DNA from: Palaeococcus pacificus DY20341
GTDB lineage: Archaea > Methanobacteriota_B > Thermococci > Thermococcales > Thermococcaceae
Direction of reading: 5' to 3'
NCBI RefSeq assembly: GCF_000725425.1
Contig: NZ_CP006019.1
Coordinates: forward strand, 248,001-312,000
DNA: 64,000 nt
Positions 20,442 through 46,885 of the stretch are shown here, piece after piece. Below the pieces are notes generated by a model that saw only the letters and a list, made by a program, of their open reading frames with translations, was not told the origin of the DNA and ran no database searches. Every line of letters begins with the position of its first letter. Position 1 is the first letter of the stretch. The position numbers were made by a program, and so were the translations under genes.

Positions 20442-21119
20442 TCACCCAATTAAATCCTTAAGTGAAAATTTGAACTCTTGGCCTACTAAGTCGGAATATG
20501 GGCTCTTTTTAAATATGACCTTTCCTTCTCCGTGCTCTCCTGATATATAAACCACAGTGCTTGCTATTCTCTCAAGTTCGGGGAGGAGATTGTACTTTAG
20601 CGACAGTGCGACGTTTTTGTCGATTATGTAAAATGCCTTTCTCTTTTCATTACCGAGAAAGCTTTGGATTGAGCCTATCAATGTGTAGAACTCACGGGTA
20701 TTTTGTACAAAGGCAAAGAGCCTTTCCAAACCTAGGACGATATTAACGGCTCTATCAACTTCTGTAAACGTTTTTGAGCTTATTTCTTCATAACGCTTTA
20801 TGTATATTGCCGGCTCACTCTCGATTTTTACCCTTCCAACAACAGTACCTATATTTAACTTTCCGCCGGTTTTTATTACGAACGCGTCTTTGAAGTCCTC
20901 TTCAATTCCTAAAAACCTCAAGTGCTCTTTTACAATGTGAAGGCAGTCGAGATTATCGTCTATTATTATTGAAAGCCCTCCTTTTCTTGCATATTCAAGA
21001 AGAATCATCGTTACTAATTCAGCAGCATAAAACGGCTCATACTCTATAAGAATCATATCGCCAAAGTGAGTCTTATCTATTAATTCAAAGATTTTCTCAG
21101 GAATTTTACCCACACTCAT
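20442..21119 (-). CDS. DUF257 protein, paralogue 1
   Basis: About 225 residues of DUF257, a family found mainly in Thermococcales. It has an alpha/beta pattern reminiscent of a RecA/KaiC core (MILIEYEPFYAAELVTMILLEYAR, LSIIIDDNLDCLHIVKEHL, KAFYIIDKNV) but no P-loop is visible. Function is unknown. ATG 21119 overlaps AGGTGATG; the GTG three codons in is better spaced from that site and may be the true start. A TATA box (AACTATATATC) lies near 21150, so it has its own promoter although it follows paralogue 2 by 57 nt. Confidence 0.72.
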   Translation of the reverse strand: MSVGKIPEKIFELIDKTHFGDMILIEYEPFYAAELVTMILLEYARKGGLSIIIDDNLDCLHIVKEHLRFLGIEEDFKDAFVIKTGGKLNIGTVVGRVKIESEPAIYIKRYEEISSKTFTEVDRAVNIVLGLERLFAFVQNTREFYTLIGSIQSFLGNEKRKAFYIIDKNVALSLKYNLLPELERIASTVVYISGEHGEGKVIFKKSPYSDLVGQEFKFSLKDLIG

Positions 21120-21176
21120 CACCTAATAAAATTAAACGAATTTGAATGATATATAGTTTTTGTCAGTTGATTAAAT

Positions 21177-21842
21177 CTACAGTAACTCACATACAGGAAT
21201 TTTAATTTTCTGTCCGATGAGATCTATCATTGAGCTTTTCTTAAATAAGAGCACTCCTTTGTCCTTTTCTGGTGTTACCTCAACCACGATGCTCGCCACT
21301 CTCTCAAGCTCTGGCAGTGGATTGTACTTTAAGATTGAAGCAACGTTTTTGTCAATTATGTAGAATGATTTTCTCTTGTTATTGCCAAGAAAGCTTTGAA
21401 TACCTATAATCCATGTGTAAAAGTGATTTATATTTTCAACAAATGCGAACAATTTTTCAATACCGAGCACTATATTTATAACATTATTAGCATTTGAATA
21501 AATCTCCTCTCCGACTCTCTCATAGTGCTTTTCATATATCACAGGGTCACTTTCTAGAGATATTCTATTAACCACATTACCCACATTTATCATTCCGCCT
21601 GTCTTCACAACAAGGGCATCTTCAAAATTCTCTTTAATTCCAAATAACTTCAAGTGCTCTCTTACAATATGAAGAGAATCGAAATTATCGTCTATTACTA
21701 TGGGATACCCCCTCATTCGGGCGTATTTTACCAGTGCTAAAGTTATAAACTCAGCTGCATACGAGGGGCCATACTCAATGAGAACAGTTTCTCCGAATTT
21801 TATGTTATCAATTAGTTGGAATACTTTATTGAGCCTATTCAT
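21177..21842 (-). CDS. DUF257 protein, paralogue 2
   Basis: A 221-residue tandem paralogue of the preceding entry, sharing FGETVLIEYGPSYAAEFITLALVKYAR, PIVIDDNFDSLHIVREHLKLFGI, SFLGNNKRKSFYIIDKNVASILKYNPLPELERVASIVV and similar spacing. No catalytic motif is recognised. GGTGAT at 21847-21852 fixes ATG 21842. A promoter (CGAAAGATATTTATTTAATG) is embedded in the last codons of the hydrogenase alpha gene upstream, so it can be expressed independently of the hydrogenase operon or by read-through from it. Confidence 0.75.
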   Translation of the reverse strand: MNRLNKVFQLIDNIKFGETVLIEYGPSYAAEFITLALVKYARMRGYPIVIDDNFDSLHIVREHLKLFGIKENFEDALVVKTGGMINVGNVVNRISLESDPVIYEKHYERVGEEIYSNANNVINIVLGIEKLFAFVENINHFYTWIIGIQSFLGNNKRKSFYIIDKNVASILKYNPLPELERVASIVVEVTPEKDKGVLLFKKSSMIDLIGQKIKIPVCELL

Positions 21843-21892
21843 GAGTATCACCTAAATAAAAATTAAAAGGCATTAAATAAATATCTTTCGCA

Positions 21893-23143
21893 TCAGAGCT
21901 TTACTAAGTGCACGGAACAAGAAATGCACGGGTCAAATGCTCTAACAGTTTCTTCAAGCTTTTGAATGAGGGTTTTTTCATCCAATGTCCCGTAGTGCCT
22001 CTTGGCCTCTTCATAAAGGCTTAGCTCCATTAGAGCGTGGTTGAAGGCCGTGGGTGTTATTATGTTAGAGTAGGCTATGTTGCCCTTCTCATCTATGCGA
22101 TAGTGGTGAACTAGGACACCTCTCGGCGCTTCTACATAACCTATGCCTTCGCCCTCTTGGGGCTCTACTGAAATGTTTTCTCCTTCGACTCCTTTATCTA
22201 AGAGCTCTTTTGCTATCTCACTGGCTCTCTCAAGACCATAAACAAGCTCAATGGCTTGAGCTAGGTTGTTTAAGCTCACATAGCCTTTGGAAAGCCTTTC
22301 CTTATACTCCTCAAAGAGCCTCTTAGCGAGGGGAGTCAGCTTTTCGGCTTTGAGCATCACTCTAGGTAGGGATCCTACCATGAATATCTTATCCTTGTAC
22401 CTGCTTTGCTTTGCAAAGCTGTAGGGAAGAGATTTCTCTTCAATGTGTTCAAAGTAATCAAAGCTTTCCTTGTCGCATGCTATTAGCTTATTGCCATATA
22501 GATAGTCATTGGTCGCGATGTAGTGCTCAGCTTTAGCACCAAAAGGTTCTTGGGACGCGAATATTCCTACAGCCCTTTTTGCAAACTTTATCAGTGCTTC
22601 GCTGTTTTTCTCAATCTTTTCAAGCTCTTCTATGCTTGGATATCTTCCAAATCCTCCGGGTTTAACGTTTATGCCATGGATTTCCCTTCCACCGATTACT
22701 TCGCGAATATAGTTGCCGAAGGCTTTTATTGTCAGACCTTCATTCACTACCTCTCCATGCTTGCTCGCCATTCTTATAGCATCGGCGTACCCAAATAAGT
22801 CGGGTGCTACTAGGAGGTATAGGTGGAGAGCGTGGCTCTCAATAAATTCGCCTATTAATCCGAGCTCTCTCAGGAGCATTATCTCCTTAGGAACCTCGAC
22901 ACCAAAGGCTCTCTCAATTCCAAGCACTGACGCTACCGAGTGGGATAGATAGCAAATAGCGCATATTCTAGCCTCTAAATCTGGCACATCGTAGTAGTGC
23001 CGCCCCAAGGTTAGGATTTCAAAGAATCTCGGCCCCTCGAAGATTTTAACCCTTACCTCTTTGACTTCACCGTCCTCTATTATTATCTCAGCACCACCGT
23101 TTCCCTCAACTCTTGTGAATGCATCTATCTCTATGCTCACCAT
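21893..23143 (-). CDS. shyA: NiFe (sulf)hydrogenase alpha subunit, group 3b
   Basis: The catalytic large subunit of a cytosolic heterotetrameric hydrogenase that exchanges electrons between H2 and NAD(P)H and can reduce polysulfide. The 416-residue protein has the two NiFe cysteine pairs, RICAICYLSH near residue 60 and DPCISCSVH at the C-terminus. The tail after that His (LVKL) is the probable maturation-protease cleavage product. Length and the RICxxC motif suggest hydrogenase II (ShyA) rather than hydrogenase I. Its start overlaps the delta gene by 7 nt. It is last in the order beta-gamma-delta-alpha. Confidence 0.9.
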   Translation of the reverse strand: MVSIEIDAFTRVEGNGGAEIIIEDGEVKEVRVKIFEGPRFFEILTLGRHYYDVPDLEARICAICYLSHSVASVLGIERAFGVEVPKEIMLLRELGLIGEFIESHALHLYLLVAPDLFGYADAIRMASKHGEVVNEGLTIKAFGNYIREVIGGREIHGINVKPGGFGRYPSIEELEKIEKNSEALIKFAKRAVGIFASQEPFGAKAEHYIATNDYLYGNKLIACDKESFDYFEHIEEKSLPYSFAKQSRYKDKIFMVGSLPRVMLKAEKLTPLAKRLFEEYKERLSKGYVSLNNLAQAIELVYGLERASEIAKELLDKGVEGENISVEPQEGEGIGYVEAPRGVLVHHYRIDEKGNIAYSNIITPTAFNHALMELSLYEEAKRHYGTLDEKTLIQKLEETVRAFDPCISCSVHLVKL

Positions 23144-23874
23144 CTAAGCTCCCCCCGTGCAAACGTCTTGAACTTCCTCCTAATGTATTCCTCATCGTAT
23201 CCCAACTCTTTGAGAATCTCAAATTCTCCAGCTGGGTTCGCTTCCTTTGGTAACGGCCCTCTGCATCCGATGCATCCGATACCAGACTTTATGCAGATGG
23301 CATCGCATCCACCGAGGGTTATGGGCCCTAAACATGGGATTTCCCTTTTAACAAGAATGCATTCGTATTCGTTGAGTTTACACTCTATACAGACAGGATA
23401 ATCTTTTTTGGGCGGTTCAACACCTTTTGCTATGTTCATGAGCACTTGGTAAATTTCATCCTTGTCGTAGGGACATCCTGGGAGTGCGTAATCGACAGCA
23501 ACGTACTCTACAATTGGCTTTGAGTCTAAAGCTTTCATGGGATTTGCTTTCGTCCCGTAGACCTTCTCAAGCTTTTCCCTAATTTTGCCTTCGACGCTTC
23601 CCTGTACATCTCCATGTGTTGCACATGTCCCCAAAGCTATTAAATACTTTGAATGGTTCCTTGCGTGCTTTAAGAGTGCTAAATCCCTCTGTGTTGATAC
23701 AGTTCCCGTAACTATGGCAACATCCAAGTGATCGTGCTCCTTAAAGCTTGAAGCCATGTGAAATTCTTTAATCTCATAGAACTTCAGCACATCAAAGAGC
23801 TTCTCATAGAGGAAGAGTATGTTGAGCGCACAGCCTCCACAGTCCGTAAGCTCAAAAACACCAAGCTTGAGCAT
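23137..23874 (-). CDS. shyD: NiFe hydrogenase delta (small, FeS) subunit
   Basis: The small subunit passing electrons from the NiFe site through FeS clusters. In 245 residues it shows DCGGCALN, GTCATHGD and GCPYDKDE for the proximal cluster. Cysteine-rich CIECKLNEYECILV, PCLGPITLGGCDAICI and GCIGCRGPLPKE follow for the remaining clusters. There is no twin-arginine signal, so the enzyme is cytosolic. It begins one nucleotide after the gamma stop codon and overlaps the alpha gene by 7 nt. Confidence 0.9.
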   Translation of the reverse strand: MLKLGVFELTDCGGCALNILFLYEKLFDVLKFYEIKEFHMASSFKEHDHLDVAIVTGTVSTQRDLALLKHARNHSKYLIALGTCATHGDVQGSVEGKIREKLEKVYGTKANPMKALDSKPIVEYVAVDYALPGCPYDKDEIYQVLMNIAKGVEPPKKDYPVCIECKLNEYECILVKREIPCLGPITLGGCDAICIKSGIGCIGCRGPLPKEANPAGEFEILKELGYDEEYIRRKFKTFARGELRW

Positions 23875-24744
23875 TTAAATCAACCCCCTCGTGGATAGAG
23901 CATCCCAATATGTGAAGACGGGTCCATCTTTGCACACGTATTTTATTGAAGTGCTCGTTCCAACAATGCAGTGCCCGCATTTACCGACGCCACAGCGCAT
24001 TCTTCTCTCTAGTGTCATGTAAATTCTTCCTGGTGAAAGCTTTCTGTCCAAGAGCTCCCTTATGACGAACTTATACATCACTGGGGGTCCACAAATTAGG
24101 GCGTAGGTGTTGGTAACGTCAAACTCCTCTCCTCTGAATAAGTCCGTGACAACACCTTTGCACACTTTAGGAGCGAAGCCTTTCTCTAAGTAGATACACG
24201 ATGGGCTTTCAACCTCATATGCGAGCTTTACAGTACAGTTCATTGCTTCTCCATGCTTCAAGAGATGGGTTATCTCATCCCTAAAGAGTATGTCTTCATA
24301 GCTCTTTGTTCCGTAGAAGAGGTATATGTGCTGGTATTTTCCGCTGTCAAGGGCGTACCAAAGCACGGAGCGCAGTGGTGCCATTCCTAAACCACCAGCA
24401 ACGAGAACTAAGTTTGAGCCCTCCATGGTTTCCATTGGGAAGCCATTTCCATAAGGGCCGCGGATTCCAACTATATCCCCCTCTTTCAGCTCATGCACGT
24501 ATTTGGTCATCCTTCCTACCCTTCTAATGCACAGCTGGAAGTAGCCTTCCCTCGTTGGAGTGGAGCATAAGCTAATTGGGAACTCTCCAAAGCCTCTAAT
24601 GTCAACAATTACAAACTGTCCGGGTTTATATTTGAAGTTCCTGTTGATTTCTGGATCAACGAAGCGCAGGGTGAACAGCTTTTCTCTTGATGTGAGCTCT
24701 TTTACCTCCAAAATCCTCGCGTCGTGAGTTTGAAACGTGCTCAT
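23875..24744 (-). CDS. shyG: NiFe hydrogenase gamma subunit, FAD/NAD(P)-binding diaphorase
   Basis: A 289-residue ferredoxin-reductase-type subunit that links the hydrogenase to NAD(P)H. The FAD domain has YKPGQFVIVDIRG and GIRGPYGNGFP; the nucleotide domain has LVLVAGGLGMAPLRSVL and ICGPPVMYKFVIREL. The C-terminal RRMRCGVGKCGHC plus a later Cys bind a [2Fe-2S] cluster. Its start overlaps the beta stop by 4 nt. Close relatives include SudA/NfnS-type subunits, but operon position fixes it as the hydrogenase gamma. Confidence 0.9.
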   Translation of the reverse strand: MSTFQTHDARILEVKELTSREKLFTLRFVDPEINRNFKYKPGQFVIVDIRGFGEFPISLCSTPTREGYFQLCIRRVGRMTKYVHELKEGDIVGIRGPYGNGFPMETMEGSNLVLVAGGLGMAPLRSVLWYALDSGKYQHIYLFYGTKSYEDILFRDEITHLLKHGEAMNCTVKLAYEVESPSCIYLEKGFAPKVCKGVVTDLFRGEEFDVTNTYALICGPPVMYKFVIRELLDRKLSPGRIYMTLERRMRCGVGKCGHCIVGTSTSIKYVCKDGPVFTYWDALSTRGLI

Positions 24745-25745
24745 TCTAAAGCCTCCCTCACTTCATCTAAAACTTTAACATGCTCTATTTTAGCTGGGCA
24801 GAACTCATCACACCTTCCACAGCCAACACAGTTGAAGCCTGCTGAGGGATCAAAATAGCTCTTGCAGTAGTAGCGGTGCCTGAACCTATCTAAGCGCGTA
24901 GGTCTAAAGTTGTGGCCACCGGCAACTAGACCATGGCTTTCCATGAAGCATGAGTCATAGCGTCTAATCCTCACTGACTCATAAGCGTTCGTCCAAAGGT
25001 CGCAGACTTCGTAGCACCTGCAAGTGGGACACACCATGTTACAGCTTCCACAACCAAGGCAAATCTTTTCGTATTTCTTCCATACTGGACTGTTGAAGGC
25101 TAAATCCAGCATATCGGCTAATCCTTCTTTGTTTAATGCCTTTTTAAACGCCTTTGCTCTCTCTTCCTCAAAAGCCCTGAAGTTCTTTAGGTCTTCTTCA
25201 CTCACATCCTCAAAGAGGTTCTCATTTTCCCAAGCAATTTCGTGCCCCTTCACGCTTCCAACTCTAACCAAGTAGCCATCTGGAAGTTCGTGAAGGAACA
25301 AGTCAAAGCCGCTCATGGCAAAATCGGTACCTAAACTCTTGCAGAAGCAGTACTCATCCGGCATACAGCTGATTCCAATTATTATTGAATTTTCGCGTCT
25401 TTTCTTGTAGTAGGGGTCTGCAGGCTCTTCTAGATAGACTTTATCGAGTATCTGGAGTCCATGTATGTCGCAGGAATGGATTCCAAAGAGGACTATTTTT
25501 TCAACACCATTGCACTCTTCCCACTTTTTGCCTTTAAGCTTCAGCATCTCATCTTTGGGCCTTACGAAAAACTTCTTTGGAGGCAGCATGGTTCTATTGT
25601 AGTCCAAAGAAACTTCGCTTAGCTCTTCCACCTTCTTAAAAGAGTAGATATTTCCCTGCTTTGTTGGAGCGTAGACGTTTCCCCACTTTTTCAGCGAGTT
25701 GAAGAACTCCTCAAAATTCTCCTCGGGGAGTTTTACATATCTCAA
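24741..25745 (-). CDS. shyB: NiFe hydrogenase beta subunit, [4Fe-4S] electron transfer
   Basis: About 334 residues, the first gene of the operon. The N-terminal part (NRTMLPPKKFFVRP, FGIHSCDIHGLQILD) is typical of HydB/ShyB. The C-terminal part has two ferredoxin-type sites, CLGCGSCNMVCPTCRC and CVGCGRCDEFCPAKI. The start is placed at TTG 25745 (M-R-Y-V-K-L-P, as in P. furiosus HydB), with GGTGGT spaced 4 nt upstream. GTG 25754 is part of that site. The promoter (ACAAATATAAAAATAG, about 25770-25786) leaves a very short leader. Confidence 0.9.
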   Translation of the reverse strand: MRYVKLPEENFEEFFNSLKKWGNVYAPTKQGNIYSFKKVEELSEVSLDYNRTMLPPKKFFVRPKDEMLKLKGKKWEECNGVEKIVLFGIHSCDIHGLQILDKVYLEEPADPYYKKRRENSIIIGISCMPDEYCFCKSLGTDFAMSGFDLFLHELPDGYLVRVGSVKGHEIAWENENLFEDVSEEDLKNFRAFEEERAKAFKKALNKEGLADMLDLAFNSPVWKKYEKICLGCGSCNMVCPTCRCYEVCDLWTNAYESVRIRRYDSCFMESHGLVAGGHNFRPTRLDRFRHRYYCKSYFDPSAGFNCVGCGRCDEFCPAKIEHVKVLDEVREALE

Positions 25746-25827
25746 TACGACCACCGACCTCTAATGCTTTCTATTTTTATATTTGTAAACACCCCCGATT
25801 TAAGGATTTTTTAAACGATGAGTGTTC

Positions 25828-25844
25828 AACTTTAGGTTCAAAAC
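25828..25844 (-). promoter_or_regulatory. Extended SurR-type operator between hydrogenase and NfnABC-like operons
   Basis: AAC-TTTAG-GTT-CAA-AAC is the reverse complement of GTT-N3-AAC-N5-GTT, the extended site reported for SurR, the redox-switched regulator of hydrogen and sulfur metabolism. All nine fixed bases match. It lies about 45 nt upstream of the hydrogenase TATA box (minus strand) and about 15 nt upstream of the plus-strand TATA box (TTTTATAAAC, 25861-25870), so one bound dimer could influence both operons. Confidence 0.75.
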
Positions 25845-25917
25845 ATGTACTTTAGTGCACTTTTATAAACATTCATGACAAAAATTTATGCAGGGAACAT
25901 TATTGATGGTGATTAAA

Positions 25918-26382
25918 ATGGAAGCCGCTTTTAGTTATATCTATGAATATGAAAAAAGCCCGAGCTCTTTAATTCCACTGCTACAGAAAACCCAGGAAAA
26001 ATTTGGCTATCTCCCTAGAGAGGCCCTTCAGAAGATTTCTGCCCATCTTGGCGTTCCTTTAAGCAGAGTTTACGGCGTAGCTACTTTCTACGCGCAGTTC
26101 CGCTTTGAGCCTCTTGGAAAGTATGTCATAAAAATATGCCATGGGACCGCGTGTCACGTAAACGGTGCTGTGAACATTTCTCAAGCCATTAAAGAAGAGT
26201 TTGGCATTGAAGAAGGCCAAACAACAGAAGATGGTCTAGTTACACTTGAAAGGGTTGCTTGTCTCGGCTGCTGTAGCCTAGCACCTGTTATAATGATAAA
26301 TGAGAAAGTTTACGGAAAGCTTACGCCAGATAAAGTTAGGAAGCTTATGAAAAAGCTCAAAAAAGGTGAGCTAGATGATTAA
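25918..26382 (+). CDS. NuoE-like [2Fe-2S] subunit of a bifurcating NAD(P)H:ferredoxin oxidoreductase
   Basis: A 154-residue thioredoxin-like ferredoxin: helical N-terminus (LIPLLQKTQEKFGYLPREAL), RVYGVATFYAQF, and cluster ligands in KICHGTACHVNG and ACLGCCSLAPV. It matches the small subunit (HydC/NfnC/BfuC type) of soluble complex I-like enzymes. GGTGAT just upstream of ATG 25918 fixes the start; ATG 25888 is in frame but lacks a site. The gene overlaps the next by 8 nt, and its promoter shares the SurR-type operator with the divergent hydrogenase operon. Confidence 0.88.
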   Translation: MEAAFSYIYEYEKSPSSLIPLLQKTQEKFGYLPREALQKISAHLGVPLSRVYGVATFYAQFRFEPLGKYVIKICHGTACHVNGAVNISQAIKEEFGIEEGQTTEDGLVTLERVACLGCCSLAPVIMINEKVYGKLTPDKVRKLMKKLKKGELDD

Positions 26383-28177
26383 AGCTATAGCTGTTGGAAT
26401 GAACTCTTGTGGAATAGCAGCGGGTGCTAAAGAAACTTATGAAGCCATTAAGAAGGAGCTGAAAGAGAGAGGCATTGATATCCCATTAAAAGTCGTTGGC
26501 TGCGTTGGAATGTGTTATAGGGAGCCGCTCGTAGATATAATAACCGAGAATGAAATCATCACCTACGGCCACGTTACCCCTCAAAAAGTGTCGAGAATTA
26601 TTGAGGAGCACGTTATTAATGGGAAGCCTATCGAAGAGTGGATAGTGAAGAAGGATTGGTATGAGAACGGCATAAGAAAGACATGGGACGTTGACGGATA
26701 TTTTGCTAAGCAGAAGAAGATAGTTCTAGAAAACAGTGGTTATATAGACCCTGAGAGCATTGATGAGTACATTCAAGCTGGGGGCTATGAGGCTCTCAAA
26801 AAGGCTCTCCAAATGAAGCCCGAGGAGATAATTGATGTAATCACGAAGTCTGGCCTTAGAGGAAGAGGAGGAGCTGGCTTTCCAACGGGACTTAAATGGA
26901 AGTTCGCAAGGCAGGCAAAGGGAGATGAGAAGTACATAATTTGTAATGCTGATGAAGGAGACCCCGGAGCATTCATGGATAGGAACGTCCTCGAAGGAGA
27001 TCCTCACCGTGTCATAGAGGGAATGATAATTGGAGCCTATGCTATAGGAGCTACTAAAGGCTTTATTTATGTGAGAGCTGAGTATCCCCTTGCAATAAGA
27101 AGACTTAAGATAGCCCTAAAGCAAGCAAGGGAAAGAGGCTTTTTAGGGGAGAACATCTTAGGAAGCGGCTTCTCCTTTGATATAAAGATTAAGGAAGGTG
27201 CTGGAGCTTTCGTTTGTGGAGAAGAGACGGCTTTGATAGCTTCCATTGAGGGTAAGAGGGGAATGCCTAGGCCAAGGCCGCCTTATCCAGCTCAAAAAGG
27301 TCTCTGGGGCAAGCCCACAAACATAAATAACGTTGAGACGTGGGCAAACGTTCCGTGGATAATAAAACACGGCTGGGAAGAGTATGCGAAGCTTGGAACC
27401 GAAAAGAGCAAGGGCACTAAGGTCTTCGCTTTGGCCGGAAAAATAGCCAGGGGTGGAAACGTCGAGGTTCCGATGGGAATGACTTTGAGAGAAATACTCT
27501 ATGAGATTGGCGGTGGGACTAAAACCGGCAAAAAAATTAAGGCCGTTCAATTAGGAGGACCTTCTGGGGGTTGTATTCCAGAATATCTCTTTGATACGCC
27601 CGTTGATTACGAGTCTGTCAACGCCACAGGTGCTATCATGGGAAGCGGTGGAATGGTCGTTATGGACGAAGATACTTGTATGGTCGATGTTGCAAAGTTC
27701 TTCCTAGACTTCACCGTTAAGGAATCGTGCGGAAAGTGTACTTTCTGCCGCTTAGGAACTAAGAGAATGTGGGAAATTCTGGACAAGATAACCAATGGAG
27801 AAGGGACCCTTGAGGATATAGAAGTACTCGAAAAGCTCGCACCTCAGGTGAAGACTGGCTCTCTCTGTGGTCTTGGACAAACCGCCCCAAATCCGGTTCT
27901 AACGACTCTTAGATACTTTAAAGATGAATACTTAGCCCACGTTGAGAAAAAGACGTGTCCTGCCAAGGTTTGTAAACCTCTTATAAAGTACGTCATAATC
28001 GCGGAGAACTGTACGGGATGTACGGCATGTGCCATAATGTGTCCAACTAAAGCCATAAGCGGCGAAAGGGGGAAGCCTCACGTGATAAATCAGGCAGAGT
28101 GCATAAAGTGCGGAACTTGCTATGATGTTTGTAGATTCAACGCCATAAAAATAATGGACGCTCATGAGGGTGATTAA
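26375..28177 (+). CDS. NuoF-like FMN/NAD(H)-binding subunit with extra FeS domains
   Basis: A 600-residue fusion. Residues 1-110 are a thioredoxin-like [2Fe-2S] domain (NSCGIAAGAK, GCVGMC). From about 150 follows the NuoF core with FMN loop GRGGAGFPTGLKW, nucleotide loop GAGAFVCGEETALIASIEG and an SLBB segment. The [4Fe-4S] site ESCGKCTFCRLGT comes next. The C-terminus is a 2[4Fe-4S] ferredoxin (CTGCTACAIMCP, CIKCGTCYDVC). This layout equals HydB/NfnB/BfuB, the site proposed for flavin-based electron bifurcation. GGTGAG precedes the ATG; a 1-nt gap separates it from the next gene. Confidence 0.88.
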   Translation: MIKAIAVGMNSCGIAAGAKETYEAIKKELKERGIDIPLKVVGCVGMCYREPLVDIITENEIITYGHVTPQKVSRIIEEHVINGKPIEEWIVKKDWYENGIRKTWDVDGYFAKQKKIVLENSGYIDPESIDEYIQAGGYEALKKALQMKPEEIIDVITKSGLRGRGGAGFPTGLKWKFARQAKGDEKYIICNADEGDPGAFMDRNVLEGDPHRVIEGMIIGAYAIGATKGFIYVRAEYPLAIRRLKIALKQARERGFLGENILGSGFSFDIKIKEGAGAFVCGEETALIASIEGKRGMPRPRPPYPAQKGLWGKPTNINNVETWANVPWIIKHGWEEYAKLGTEKSKGTKVFALAGKIARGGNVEVPMGMTLREILYEIGGGTKTGKKIKAVQLGGPSGGCIPEYLFDTPVDYESVNATGAIMGSGGMVVMDEDTCMVDVAKFFLDFTVKESCGKCTFCRLGTKRMWEILDKITNGEGTLEDIEVLEKLAPQVKTGSLCGLGQTAPNPVLTTLRYFKDEYLAHVEKKTCPAKVCKPLIKYVIIAENCTGCTACAIMCPTKAISGERGKPHVINQAECIKCGTCYDVCRFNAIKIMDAHEGD

Positions 28178-28178
28178 A

Positions 28179-31079
28179 ATGGTGAAGGTTATAATTAATG
28201 GCAAGGAGATGGAAGTTCCTGATGATAAAACCCTCCTTAAGATTCTTAGGGAAAAGGGCGAGCACATTCCGGGTCTGTGTTACGACGATGAAATAGACCC
28301 TTACGGCTCTTGCCGCCTCTGCCTCGTCGAAACACCCAGAGGTTTGACAACTTCATGTACTCTTAAGCCTATGGAAGGTCTCGCCATTGAGACACTTAAC
28401 GATAGAATCGTCGAGATGCGGAGAACTGCTCTTGAACTTATGCTCTCCGACCACTATGGCGATTGTATCGGGCCCTGCCAGAAGGGATGTCCTGCCCACA
28501 GTGATGTTCAAGGTTATTTAGCTTTGATAGCTATGGGTAAGTACCACGAAGCTGTGAAGCTCATGAAAGAAAAGTATATCCTCCCCGCAGTCCTTGGAAG
28601 GGTTTGTCCTGCTTTTTGTGAGGATGAGTGCAGGCGCAATCTGGTTGAAGAACCCCTCGCGATAAGGCAGCTAAAGAGGTATGCGGCAGATTATGACCTA
28701 GAGCACGGGCCGTGGATGCCAGAAATTCCGCCTTCAACGGGTAAGAAAGTGGCTGTTGTTGGGGGAGGACCAGCTGGATTAGCTTGTGCTTACTATTTGA
28801 GGACAATGGGACATGATGTGACTATATTTGAGGCTATGCCTAAGCTTGGAGGAATGATGCGCTATGGAATTCCTCCTTACAGGCTTCCAAGGGATGTTTT
28901 GGATAAAGACATAGCCACGGTAATAGACACTGGCATAGAGGTCAAGACTAGCTGTGCCCTTGGTAAAGACGTCACATTAGAGGAGCTTAGAGAAAAATAT
29001 GACGCGGTCTTTTTAGGTGTTGGAGCTTGGAAGAGCAGAAAGATGGGCATTGAAGGCGAAGATTTGGAGGGAGTGATGCACGGCATAGAGTTCCTTAGAA
29101 AAGTCAACATGGGCGAGAAGGTTGAGCTTGGAAAGCGGGTTATAGTCGTAGGCGGTGGAAATACTGCTATGGATGTAGCAAGAACAGCTCTAAGGCTTGG
29201 TGCCGAGGTTACCGTTGTTTACAGGCGTTCAAGGGAAGAGATGCCTGCCAACGAGCGCGAGGTGGAAGAGGCTGAGGAAGAGGGCGTTAAATTCATGTTC
29301 CTCACAAACCCAGTCAGGATACTTGGGGAAAGAAAAGTCGAGAAGGTAGAGCTAATTAAAATGAAGCTTGGGGAACCAGATGCAAGCGGAAGGAGGAGGC
29401 CTATACCAATAGAAGGCTCAAACTTTACGGTTGAAGCGGACAACGTGATTTTAGCCATCGGACAGTACTGCGATGAGGAGTTCTTGAAGAGTTTGGGAAT
29501 CGAGGCGAAGAGAGGTAAAGCTTTGGTGGACGATGTGACGCTTCAAACGAGTATTGAGGGTGTCTTTGCGGCTGGTGACCTCGTTTTGGGCCCCTCAACG
29601 GTGATAGAGTCCATAGCCACTGGAAGAAGAGCGGCAATAATGATAGACCTATACCTTAAAGGTAAGCTCGAAAAGGCCGAGAAGGCACTCTTAGAGCCAT
29701 CAAAGCGCATAATGGAGATTGTGGACGATGAGGACTTGTACAGAGTGCTCTTCGACTTGAAGCCATACAACCACTGGAAAGACGTTAGTGAGGAGGACTA
29801 CGCGCACGTGGAGAGGATTCCAAGGGTTAAGGCCAAGCTTAAGGATGCTGGGGAGAGAGCTAAGAGCTTTGAGGAAGTCGAGCTAACGCTGAGCGAAGAG
29901 GAAGTGCTTAAAGAAGCTCAGAGATGCATGTCCTGCGGATGTATGGAGGTCTTTAGGTGTAAGCTTAGGGAGTACGCAACGCTCTATGATGCTAAGCAAT
30001 ATGCCTTTGTAGGTGAACAAAACGCCTTTGAGCTTGATGAAAGCCATCCAAGCGTTGTCTTAGACAACAACAAGTGTGTTTTGTGCGGAAGATGCGTTAA
30101 TTTAACCCAAGAAGTAATTGGCGAAGGCGTTTTGGACTATACTTTTAGAGGCTTTAAGACCATGATTTCACCGCCGTTGGGCACGAAGCTTTCGGACATG
30201 GAGGGCCAATTTATTGGGGACATGATAGATGTTTGTCCTACTGGGGCTATCAGCGAAAAGCTTCCATTCGTTAAGCCAGGTCCATGGAAAACCACGCCGG
30301 TGGCAACGGTGTGCAACGGCTGTGGCTTAGGTTGTGAGATGAATATTGAAGTTTATGGGGACATGCTCGTTAGGGCATCATCAAAGCTTCTCTCATGGAA
30401 CAACGGCCATATATGTGATAAGGGAAGATTTGAGCGTCTCTGGGATCAAAAACTTGAGAAGCCCATCCTTAATGGACGGGAAATAACTTGGGAAGAAGCG
30501 AAAGCAGTAATAAAGGAGAAGCTATGCAATTTGGCAATTGTCCTAACTCCTGAGGTTACTCAAGAAGAAGCGCTCTACTTCAAGGAGCTAGCAGAGAAGC
30601 ACAATCTCAAGCTCGGCGCTTTAGTTAAGGAAGGTATTTCAACAGCAACCCTTGAAGACTTAAGGAAAGCCAAGCGCGTTTTAGTGAAGGCTGATTTGAA
30701 CAAGTATCCATACCTAAAGGTTCTCCTAAATGGCAAGGAGCTTGTGGAGGAGAATTATGACATGGCTATTTTAGAAGCCCCGGCTGAACCCCTCGACGTT
30801 CCAACGCTAATCCTACATGAGGGTGTCAACGAAGTAGGCTTGCTAAAGCTAGGTATCAAAGGCATTCCTAAAGCGGAGACTTACTTAGTAATCGGCCGCT
30901 TAAAGGAGAAGCTCGATGGCTTTACAATAGTGCTCGGTGAAGGAGAGGGCAACTTAATAATCCCCTATAAGGCTTGGGCCGAAAAGGAGGGCACTGTGAT
31001 AAATGTTTTCAACATGGAGCTGAGAGTCGGAAAGGCAAGGGAGTTCAAGGTTGATGTAGAAGAGCTTTTATTCCTTTGA
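28179..31079 (+). CDS. Fusion of [2Fe-2S] ferredoxin, GltD/NfnL-like flavoprotein and NuoG-like FeS domains
   Basis: A 966-residue protein. Residues 1-80 are a plant-type [2Fe-2S] ferredoxin (GLCYDDEIDPYGSC, C-x2-C, later C). GltD-type FeS ligands follow (GPCQKGCPAHSDVQGY, CPAFCEDECRR). A two-Rossmann flavoprotein spans about 190-500 (AVVGGGPAGLACAYY, VVGGGNTAMDVA, FAAGDLVLGPSTV). After about 585 come NuoG-like FeS sites (CMSCGCMEVFRC, CVLCGRCVN, CPTGAI) and a CNGCGLGC molybdopterin-oxidoreductase FeS domain. No molybdopterin-binding domain follows: only about 200 residues remain. This is the NfnA/BfuA architecture, implying NADPH exchange at the GltD-like flavin. GGTGAT supports start 28179. 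Confidence 0.85.
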   Translation: MVKVIINGKEMEVPDDKTLLKILREKGEHIPGLCYDDEIDPYGSCRLCLVETPRGLTTSCTLKPMEGLAIETLNDRIVEMRRTALELMLSDHYGDCIGPCQKGCPAHSDVQGYLALIAMGKYHEAVKLMKEKYILPAVLGRVCPAFCEDECRRNLVEEPLAIRQLKRYAADYDLEHGPWMPEIPPSTGKKVAVVGGGPAGLACAYYLRTMGHDVTIFEAMPKLGGMMRYGIPPYRLPRDVLDKDIATVIDTGIEVKTSCALGKDVTLEELREKYDAVFLGVGAWKSRKMGIEGEDLEGVMHGIEFLRKVNMGEKVELGKRVIVVGGGNTAMDVARTALRLGAEVTVVYRRSREEMPANEREVEEAEEEGVKFMFLTNPVRILGERKVEKVELIKMKLGEPDASGRRRPIPIEGSNFTVEADNVILAIGQYCDEEFLKSLGIEAKRGKALVDDVTLQTSIEGVFAAGDLVLGPSTVIESIATGRRAAIMIDLYLKGKLEKAEKALLEPSKRIMEIVDDEDLYRVLFDLKPYNHWKDVSEEDYAHVERIPRVKAKLKDAGERAKSFEEVELTLSEEEVLKEAQRCMSCGCMEVFRCKLREYATLYDAKQYAFVGEQNAFELDESHPSVVLDNNKCVLCGRCVNLTQEVIGEGVLDYTFRGFKTMISPPLGTKLSDMEGQFIGDMIDVCPTGAISEKLPFVKPGPWKTTPVATVCNGCGLGCEMNIEVYGDMLVRASSKLLSWNNGHICDKGRFERLWDQKLEKPILNGREITWEEAKAVIKEKLCNLAIVLTPEVTQEEALYFKELAEKHNLKLGALVKEGISTATLEDLRKAKRVLVKADLNKYPYLKVLLNGKELVEENYDMAILEAPAEPLDVPTLILHEGVNEVGLLKLGIKGIPKAETYLVIGRLKEKLDGFTIVLGEGEGNLIIPYKAWAEKEGTVINVFNMELRVGKAREFKVDVEELLFL

Positions 31080-31105: not shown

Positions 31106-31627
31106 ATGGAGTTTTTTGATGTGGTTAAAAAGAGGAGGAGTATTAGGAAATTCCAGGAGAAAGAAGTTCCTCGTGAATACATCGAGAAAATCCTTGAGGC
31201 AGCTTTCTATTCACCGAGCTCGAGGAACAGGAGGCCTTGGCACTTCGTAGTTGTTGATGATAGGGCTCTCATTAAAGCATTAGCAAAGACGAGGCCGGCT
31301 TTGAGGTTTTTGGAGACCGCACCTCTCGCTATAGTCGTGTGCGGTGATGAGAGCATAAGCTCCGCATGGGTCTTCGATGCATCAATAGCCGCTGAACACA
31401 TACAATTGGCGGCCGCTGCTTTGGGACTTGGTGCCTGCTGGGGCCACGTGCTCGATAGAGCGCATAATGAGAAGAAGAGTGCCGAGGAATACATAAGAGA
31501 GCTCTTAGGAATTCCAGAGCACATAAGGATTTTATGCGTCATCGGGATAGGCTACCCAGCGGAGAAAAAGGAAGAGCACAAAAAGGATGAAGTAATGAGG
31601 GATAGGATTCACTTCAACCGCTTTTAG
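31106..31627 (+). CDS. Nitroreductase-family flavoprotein
   Basis: A 173-residue FMN-binding oxidoreductase. The family N-terminus FDVVKKRRSIRKFQEKEVP binds FMN phosphate through its arginines. PSSRNRRPWHFVVVDD and AAAALGLGACWGHVLD complete the conserved pattern, and the short length is typical of archaeal members. Substrate unknown. It follows the bifurcating-enzyme genes after 26 nt with GAGGTGAGAG as ribosome-binding site and probably belongs to that transcript. The last 14 nt overlap the convergent aminotransferase gene. Confidence 0.85.
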   Translation: MEFFDVVKKRRSIRKFQEKEVPREYIEKILEAAFYSPSSRNRRPWHFVVVDDRALIKALAKTRPALRFLETAPLAIVVCGDESISSAWVFDASIAAEHIQLAAAALGLGACWGHVLDRAHNEKKSAEEYIRELLGIPEHIRILCVIGIGYPAEKKEEHKKDEVMRDRIHFNRF

Positions 31628-34974: not shown

Positions 34975-35634
34975 TTACTCCTCTAAACTATCTAAGTCAT
35001 AGTCAAAGGCCTTGTCGTCGATTTCAGGATTTATTGACTTTATGACGTTGAATTGATGTATTCGCCCTTTCTTTTTGATATTTATTACTGTTGTTGCTAT
35101 GGCTTCGAGTATTGGGAGGGGATTGAATTCTAATCCTTCTAAAACGTGTTTGTTAATGAAATAGATAGCTATCCTTCTTTTATCTCCAACATAGAGGGAT
35201 ATATCCCCTATTTCTTCAAGTATATCCAGCTTTGATTCGCTCAGCAGCAGAAACTTTTCCAGTCCTAGAACAGGGTTTAAAAATATTCCTTCATTTTCTT
35301 TTATCGCTTTTTTATATGCCTTTTCATACTCTTTCTTGATTATAGGGCCACTGCGAAGACTTATACTCTCTAAAACATTTCCAACTCCTCTATGGCCTCC
35401 GATTTTTATTACGCTCACGTTATCAAAAATGGATGTGTCCAGCTTTGAGAGTTCGAGGTGGACATTATAGATATAAAGCGTATCGAGATAGTCGTCTATG
35501 AGTATTTTAAATCCTTTTTCCCTGGCATACTTAACAGCGCTGTACAATTCGTAAATAGGAAACGTCTTGGAGTCATACTCAATAAGTACAGTCTCACCGG
35601 GTTTTAGGCTCTCAATTAATTTGTGAAACTGCAT
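34975..35634 (-). CDS. DUF257 protein, paralogue 3
   Basis: About 219 residues, a more diverged third DUF257 member: LIESLKPGETVLIEYDSKTFPIYELYSAVKYAR, FKILIDDYLDTLYIYNVHL, IGGHRGVGNVLESISLRSGP, ISLYVGDKRRIAIYFINKHVLEGLEFNPLPILEAIATTVI. A longer frame begins at 35715, but GGGTGA immediately upstream of ATG 35634 and a TATA box (AGTTATTTAAACTTG, about 35665-35680) show the start used here. Unlike paralogues 1 and 2 it is not next to the hydrogenase. Function unknown. Confidence 0.72.
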   Translation of the reverse strand: MQFHKLIESLKPGETVLIEYDSKTFPIYELYSAVKYAREKGFKILIDDYLDTLYIYNVHLELSKLDTSIFDNVSVIKIGGHRGVGNVLESISLRSGPIIKKEYEKAYKKAIKENEGIFLNPVLGLEKFLLLSESKLDILEEIGDISLYVGDKRRIAIYFINKHVLEGLEFNPLPILEAIATTVINIKKKGRIHQFNVIKSINPEIDDKAFDYDLDSLEE

Positions 35635-35822
35635 AACTTCACCCAAATATGTTCCTACTTTCAAGTTTAAATAACTTGCTAATGTTAGCAACAAAAGAAT
35701 AAAACTTTCATTCAATATTGGAGATATATAAAATTATGAAAAAATCCTTATTGACAATATAGTAATTTTGAATGCACCAATTTAAAGCTCTGCCGAAGGA
35801 TCTTAAAAGAGAAAAATAAAAA

Positions 35823-46796: not shown

Positions 46797-46885
46797 ATTT
46801 ATACCTTTCCAAAACCAAAAGTTAACAACTAAAGAAGAAATTTTAAACTGAGAGGCTTAAACCAAAGGTTTCACACTTTCGAAAG
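46797..46885. promoter_or_regulatory. Divergent hypF/cutA promoter region with palindrome
   Basis: A minus-strand TATA box (GGTATAAATG, about 46797-46805) would start hypF near 46776. On the plus strand CTTTCGAAAG (46876-46885), a perfect 10-bp palindrome, runs into GGTTTAAAC, a likely TATA box for cutA. TTAAACC (about 46857) and GGTTTAA (about 46886) form a wider inverted repeat around it. Confidence 0.5.

Follow-up and report, generated by a model that had tools for sequence, protein, structure and literature searches.

A probable shared SurR operator between the divergent sulfhydrogenase II and Nfn-Bfu transhydrogenase operons of Palaeococcus pacificus

The closest described counterpart of the locus studied here is the SHII/NfnI promoter of P. 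furiosus, T. piezophilus and T. barophilus, in which a sulfhydrogenase II (SHII) operon likewise stands back to back with a divergent transhydrogenase operon. In T. piezophilus, one long SurR motif, GTTN3AACN5GTT, lies between SHII and NfnI and has been tabulated from both sides. The SHII operon of P. furiosus is reported to be down with sulfur. There nfnI falls too, while nfnII rises (PMC6405883), so that the direction agrees with that in P. pacificus. The surR/pdo promoter is also a divergent pair with common SurR sites, but it governs neither electron-bifurcating nor hydrogenase operons, and its sites are placed differently. On the enzymatic side, the three-subunit transhydrogenase considered below has already been characterized from T. 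sibiricus (Nfn-BfuABC) and Sporomusa ovata (StnABC), and Nso of T. litoralis is the same enzyme; the T. sibiricus enzyme reduces ferredoxin with NADPH only if NAD+ is present (PMC9304861). The publications on these three systems treat the enzyme, and we found no statement on SurR control in them. Members of the Thermococcaceae carry either Nfn-Bfu or NfnAB, not both (Schut et al. 2022).

The genome of the deep-sea archaeon Palaeococcus pacificus DY20341 is a single contig of 1,859,370 bases, and the window is the whole 64,000-nucleotide stretch of it that was analyzed; coordinates below refer to the window. Two divergent operons are separated there by an intergenic region of 163 bp. Locus tags were derived from the positions of PGI (PAP_01425), GLK (01430), PGK (01540) and HypF (01595), with an increment of five per gene; on this count the hydrogenase genes are PAP_01490-01505, and those of the bifurcating operon, together with a nitroreductase-like gene, are PAP_01510-01525. 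The genes are as follows:

21893-23143, minus strand: shyA, sulfhydrogenase II alpha (NiFe) subunit, PAP_01490, above the NCBIfam NF040828 cutoff
23137-23874, minus strand: sulfhydrogenase II delta subunit, PAP_01495, above the NCBIfam NF040831 cutoff
23875-24744, minus strand: sulfhydrogenase II gamma subunit, PAP_01500, above the NCBIfam NF040830 cutoff
24741-25754, minus strand: shyB, sulfhydrogenase II beta subunit, PAP_01505, above the NCBIfam NF040829 cutoff (true start likely the TTG at 25745)
25918-26382, plus strand: NuoE-like subunit, BfuC/StnA, PAP_01510, with a Shine-Dalgarno-like GGTGAT at 25908
26375-28177, plus strand: NuoF-like subunit, BfuB/StnB, PAP_01515, top PDB match 9n5u_B
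28164-31079, plus strand: GltD-NuoG fusion subunit, BfuA/StnC, PAP_01520, top PDB match 9n5u_A
31106-31627, plus strand: nitroreductase-like flavoprotein, PAP_01525, the fourth plus-strand gene

All four subunits of the left operon exceed the NCBIfam equivalog cutoffs in the order beta-gamma-delta-alpha, which identifies it as sulfhydrogenase II (ShyBGDA). The name SHI, given to this operon in a published transcriptome report (PMC6981617), was dropped in view of these models; the SHI-type operon of this genome is another one, at a genome position of about 557.8 kb (PAP_03240-03255). The right operon combines NuoE-like, NuoF-like and GltD-NuoG fusion genes. Its NuoF-like product matched 9n5u_B, the NfnB of the NfnABC complex, best in the PDB (1253 bits), and residues 2-968 of PAP_01520 were covered by 9n5u_A, with 8oh5_C of Stn matched too. 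Given this subunit make-up, the best relative 9n5u and the strong match to Stn 8oh5, the operon is identified from its genes as encoding a predicted Nfn-Bfu (Stn-type) bifurcating transhydrogenase. It is doubtful that PAP_01525 belongs to the complex, though it is counted in a published "complex I" set. Thus, the partner of SHII here is not NfnAB (NfnI) but the unrelated three-subunit Nfn-Bfu. Two DUF257-like genes lie directly downstream of the hydrogenase operon (20442-21851), and a third, judged by eye only, at 34975-35715.

What, then, lies in the space between these operons? The first-pass annotation had proposed an extended SurR site upstream of both TATA boxes. Indeed, all nine fixed bases of the motif are present on the minus strand, and the site occupies an activator-like position with respect to both divergent promoters. 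To this we add a second core and a third GTT, which together extend the site into an array, as well as a 14-bp palindrome and the SHII type of the hydrogenase. The elements are listed here:

25797-25804, minus strand (25804-25797 as read): TATA box of the SHII operon, CTTAAATC, kept in 36 of 38 Nfn-Bfu/SHII loci
25805-25813, minus strand: A-rich BRE-like run upstream of the SHII TATA, by sequence
25814-25844, minus strand: predicted tandem SurR array, GTTTTGAACCTAAAGTTGAACACTCATCGTT, 31 bp, GTTN3AACN5GTTN3[A/C]ACN5GTT
25822-25830, minus strand: core 2, GTTGAACAC, one substitution from GTTN3AAC
25828-25844, minus strand: predicted extended SurR site, GTTTTGAACCTAAAGTT, perfect GTTN3AACN5GTT
25836-25844, minus strand: core 1, GTTTTGAAC, within the extended SurR site
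25846-25859, no strand: near-perfect 14-bp palindrome, TGTACTTTAGTGCA, between the SurR site and the Nfn-Bfu TATA
25862-25869, plus strand: TATA box of the Nfn-Bfu operon, TTTATAAA, with TTATAA at a fixed distance in 38 of 38 loci

The long motif occurs twice in the window against 0.38 expected; genome-wide it has 30 matches, the reversed control 20. The chance of a match within the 163-bp intergenic region is about 0.003 by first-order resampling. The full 31-bp array, whose period is 14 bp, occurs at zero mismatch once in this genome and never in the reversed control; because the [A/C] choice in its pattern came from the alignment itself, this count is slightly favorable. Across 94 related genomes, most array matches fall at the SHII/Nfn-Bfu locus. 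The motif pattern by itself is thus only modestly enriched, and it is conservation that lifts the site well above chance. P. pacificus also has a SurR orthologue (L141:818-1519, minus strand; PAP_07220 by position), which matched the solved PF0095 with a phmmer E-value of 4e-87, keeps the redox CxxC as CTEC, and has a long SurR site of its own. Judged from motif and conservation, the stretch 25828-25844 almost certainly serves this sulfur sensor as a binding site.

The spacing of these elements is nearly rigid. The centre of core 1 lies 25.5 bp from that of the Nfn-Bfu TATA in all 38 Nfn-Bfu/SHII loci and 39.5 bp from the SHII TATA in 36 of them; the spacing of core 2 to the centre of the SHII TATA is therefore 25.5 bp as well. 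As at SurR-activated promoters, the motif is in the promoter and upstream of BRE/TATA, and no further GTTN3AAC was found in 25701-25960, including downstream of either TATA. A TTTACAAA-like element on the minus strand at 25780-25790, between the SHII TATA and the start, is strongly conserved across loci; it is perhaps concerned with promoter melting or is a degenerate SurR core.

The sequence upstream of shyB was compared among 63 family loci. At 38 of these the divergent neighbor is the NuoE gene of Nfn-Bfu, and at 23 it is the first gene of NfnI; of the remaining two, one has an unrelated ORF in between (G076) and the other lies too close to a contig end for a neighbor to be assigned. All 38 Nfn-Bfu/SHII loci carry the perfect long motif, as do 22 of the 23 NfnI loci, with a match at a shifted position in the NfnI locus L015. 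Neither the nine fixed bases nor the third GTT of the array varies among the 35 distinct sequences from Nfn-Bfu loci, while the spacers average 70% identity; core 2 is of the AAC type in 28 and of the CAC type, as in the window, in seven. Two genomes with the same SHII neighbor and array as P. pacificus (G078 and G077) are presumably those of T. sibiricus and T. litoralis. An Nfn-Bfu-like operon in G002 (NuoF 63% identity) was found without such a SurR site. At L178 of G076, an insertion of about 1 kb near the shyB start cuts the gene off from the array, from its own promoter and from Nfn-Bfu. The NuoF homologues of G013, G021, G024, G032 and G043 each contain one TGA within the matched stretch, which could simply fall at the C-terminal end.

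The palindrome was matched in 21 of the 94 genomes, one copy each. Twenty of these copies are at the SHII/Nfn-Bfu promoter, and the other is at the Nfn-Bfu promoter of a genome that lacks SHII (G023). In P. pacificus, which has one perfect copy, a search for a palindrome regulon returned only three sites with one mismatch; two of these lie within genes and the third between an EamA-type and a DHPS-type gene, and they form no coherent set. This distribution suggests that a second regulator may read the palindrome on the Nfn-Bfu side.

Genomes with Nfn-Bfu in which the SHII operon is missing or decayed constitute a natural test of which operon the array serves. There are five of these (G017, G023, G026, G049 and G057). 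In G017 (L173) and G026 (L174), SHII has decayed to remnants, here too adjoined by DUF257-like genes, beside an intact Nfn-Bfu operon with the array kept; in G023, G049 and G057, other neighbors take the place of SHII. The full array, comprising both cores and the third GTT, precedes Nfn-Bfu in five of five loci, whereas conservation ends at the SHII end of the array and the SHII BRE/TATA is lost. Since G049 and G057 probably share one common loss, these loci represent at least three independent events. The retention of the array in five genomes that lack a working SHII argues that the Nfn-Bfu operon is itself a selected target, and we take this comparison as strong evidence that Nfn-Bfu in its own right would need the array. 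One of these genomes, G023, fits T. kodakarensis KOD1, as we assume; the SHII-less genomes, with a genetically tractable organism probably among them, make the claim directly testable.

The expression check that the first-pass annotation had asked for, RNA-seq of both operons with and without sulfur, had already been published for P. pacificus. In that study, which concerns steady growth and not a sulfur shift, PAP_01490-01505 are down 2.66-3.20-fold with sulfur and PAP_01510-01525, named "complex I", are "slightly downregulated" (PMC6981617). Both operons thus fall, and these data together with the comparative results support the annotated idea of joint SurR control. The second hydrogenase operon, PAP_03240-03255, has no perfect SurR site (its best has one mismatch) and showed no response to sulfur in the same study (PMC6981617); it therefore acts as an internal control for the SurR reading. 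Other genes complicate the picture. The hypF gene (PAP_01595, 44452-46818) has a perfect extended SurR site at 46813-46829, just upstream of its TATA, and is nevertheless up 10.8-fold with sulfur; SuDH, whose promoter in this genome combines an upstream core at 25.5 bp with a GTTCTAAAC core downstream of the TATA, is also up; Pdo is unchanged, and SurR (PAP_07220) shows no evident change (PMC6981617). A rule by which upstream position alone predicts activation was dropped, as SuDH and hypF rise with sulfur despite their upstream sites: position does not settle the sign of the response.

The explanation that we consider probable is a shared tandem SurR operator through which the two divergent operons are co-activated in the absence of sulfur. 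In this scheme, 25828-25844 would be the upstream half of an operator common to both operons. Without sulfur, reduced SurR would bind the array and, with each TATA box 25.5 bp away from the centre of its nearest core, would recruit or stabilize the transcription machinery at the two promoters, and the co-produced sulfhydrogenase II and Nfn-Bfu would manage H2, NADPH, NADH and ferredoxin. With sulfur present, the CxxC of SurR would be oxidized, binding would be lost, and both operons would fall. In view of hypF, SuDH, the slight response of the Nfn-Bfu operon and contradictory results from T. onnurineus, we go no further than to infer that SurR binds at this site and activates the two promoters directly.

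Could the site serve the hydrogenase only and lie near Nfn-Bfu by accident, the latter being driven from a promoter of its own together with the palindrome? SurR control of SHII is established in relatives, and Nfn-Bfu of P. pacificus responds weakly. We nevertheless regard this reading as unlikely: the distance from core to Nfn-Bfu TATA is invariant, the perfect core is the one closest to Nfn-Bfu, and both cores and the third GTT persist in five genomes where SHII is absent or decayed and its BRE/TATA gone. That same persistence is left unexplained if a palindrome-binding regulator, or a general effect of growth rate, drives the sulfur response of Nfn-Bfu and SurR plays a minor part. The palindrome abuts the Nfn-Bfu BRE/TATA, is conserved and is almost unique to this promoter, and sulfur triples the growth rate of P. 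pacificus, with 336 genes falling (PMC6981617); we consider such an origin of the response distinctly unlikely all the same.

A further alternative is that SurR represses Nfn-Bfu while it activates SHII, as with the repressed SuDH/NfnII-type operons. The upstream core of SuDH at 25.5 bp, in a gene that rises with sulfur, would agree with it, and in the T. onnurineus proteome one NfnI subunit was found only in sulfur cells. The other subunit, however, was found only in cells without sulfur; nfnI of P. furiosus falls with sulfur, as PAP_01510-01525 do in the published P. pacificus data. SurR repression reportedly needs downstream or paired sites; SuDH has a GTTN3AAC downstream of its TATA, whereas none follows the TATA of Nfn-Bfu. 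Taken together, repression of Nfn-Bfu appears highly improbable. A chance match in AT-rich promoter DNA, to which the modest genome-wide excess over the reversed control might have pointed, is refuted by the conservation in both classes of loci and by the contrast between fixed bases and spacers, unless some other factor keeps these bases constant; its probability is negligible.

Co-activation through a shared operator would place the Nfn-Bfu/Stn transhydrogenase in the SurR sulfur-redox circuit of the Thermococcaceae and would indicate a physiological condition for it, H2-producing growth without sulfur. Control of the bifurcating complex from this site had been annotated as new. For Nfn-Bfu this stands as far as our literature search extended: it returned no paper on the regulation of Nfn-Bfu, StnABC or Nso and no report connecting SurR with Nfn-Bfu, the Thermococcales scan of Lipscomb et al. 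2017 lying outside the search, and the text of a T. kodakarensis transcriptome does not mention the Nfn-Bfu operon under the tags or terms looked up. It does not hold for the arrangement as such, the SHII/NfnI site having been tabulated in T. piezophilus. As NfnI stands elsewhere behind the same SurR site, and nfnI of P. furiosus responds to sulfur in the same direction, Nfn-Bfu would add a target to those of a known regulator and would not constitute a novel type of regulation. What distinguishes the present promoter from the SHII/NfnI system, besides the partner enzyme, is the tandem 31-bp array and the palindrome on the Nfn-Bfu side.

The two arrangements also offer a locus-level explanation for the either-or distribution of Nfn-Bfu and NfnAB, which in nearly all SHII loci take up one and the same position behind a common operator. 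A possible, though tentative, reading is that the array acts as a conserved regulatory socket, behind which the unrelated Nfn-Bfu and NfnI would have been exchanged while the SHII promoter stayed in place, with a second regulator reading the palindrome. Genus g4 includes loci of both kinds. Between them, the array is 90-100% identical and the SHII promoter 88-93%, and identity falls to 36-45% just past the palindrome, a pattern that fits a swap of one transhydrogenase for the other behind a kept operator. A remnant of the palindrome, 71-88% identical, persists in the NfnI loci of this genus.
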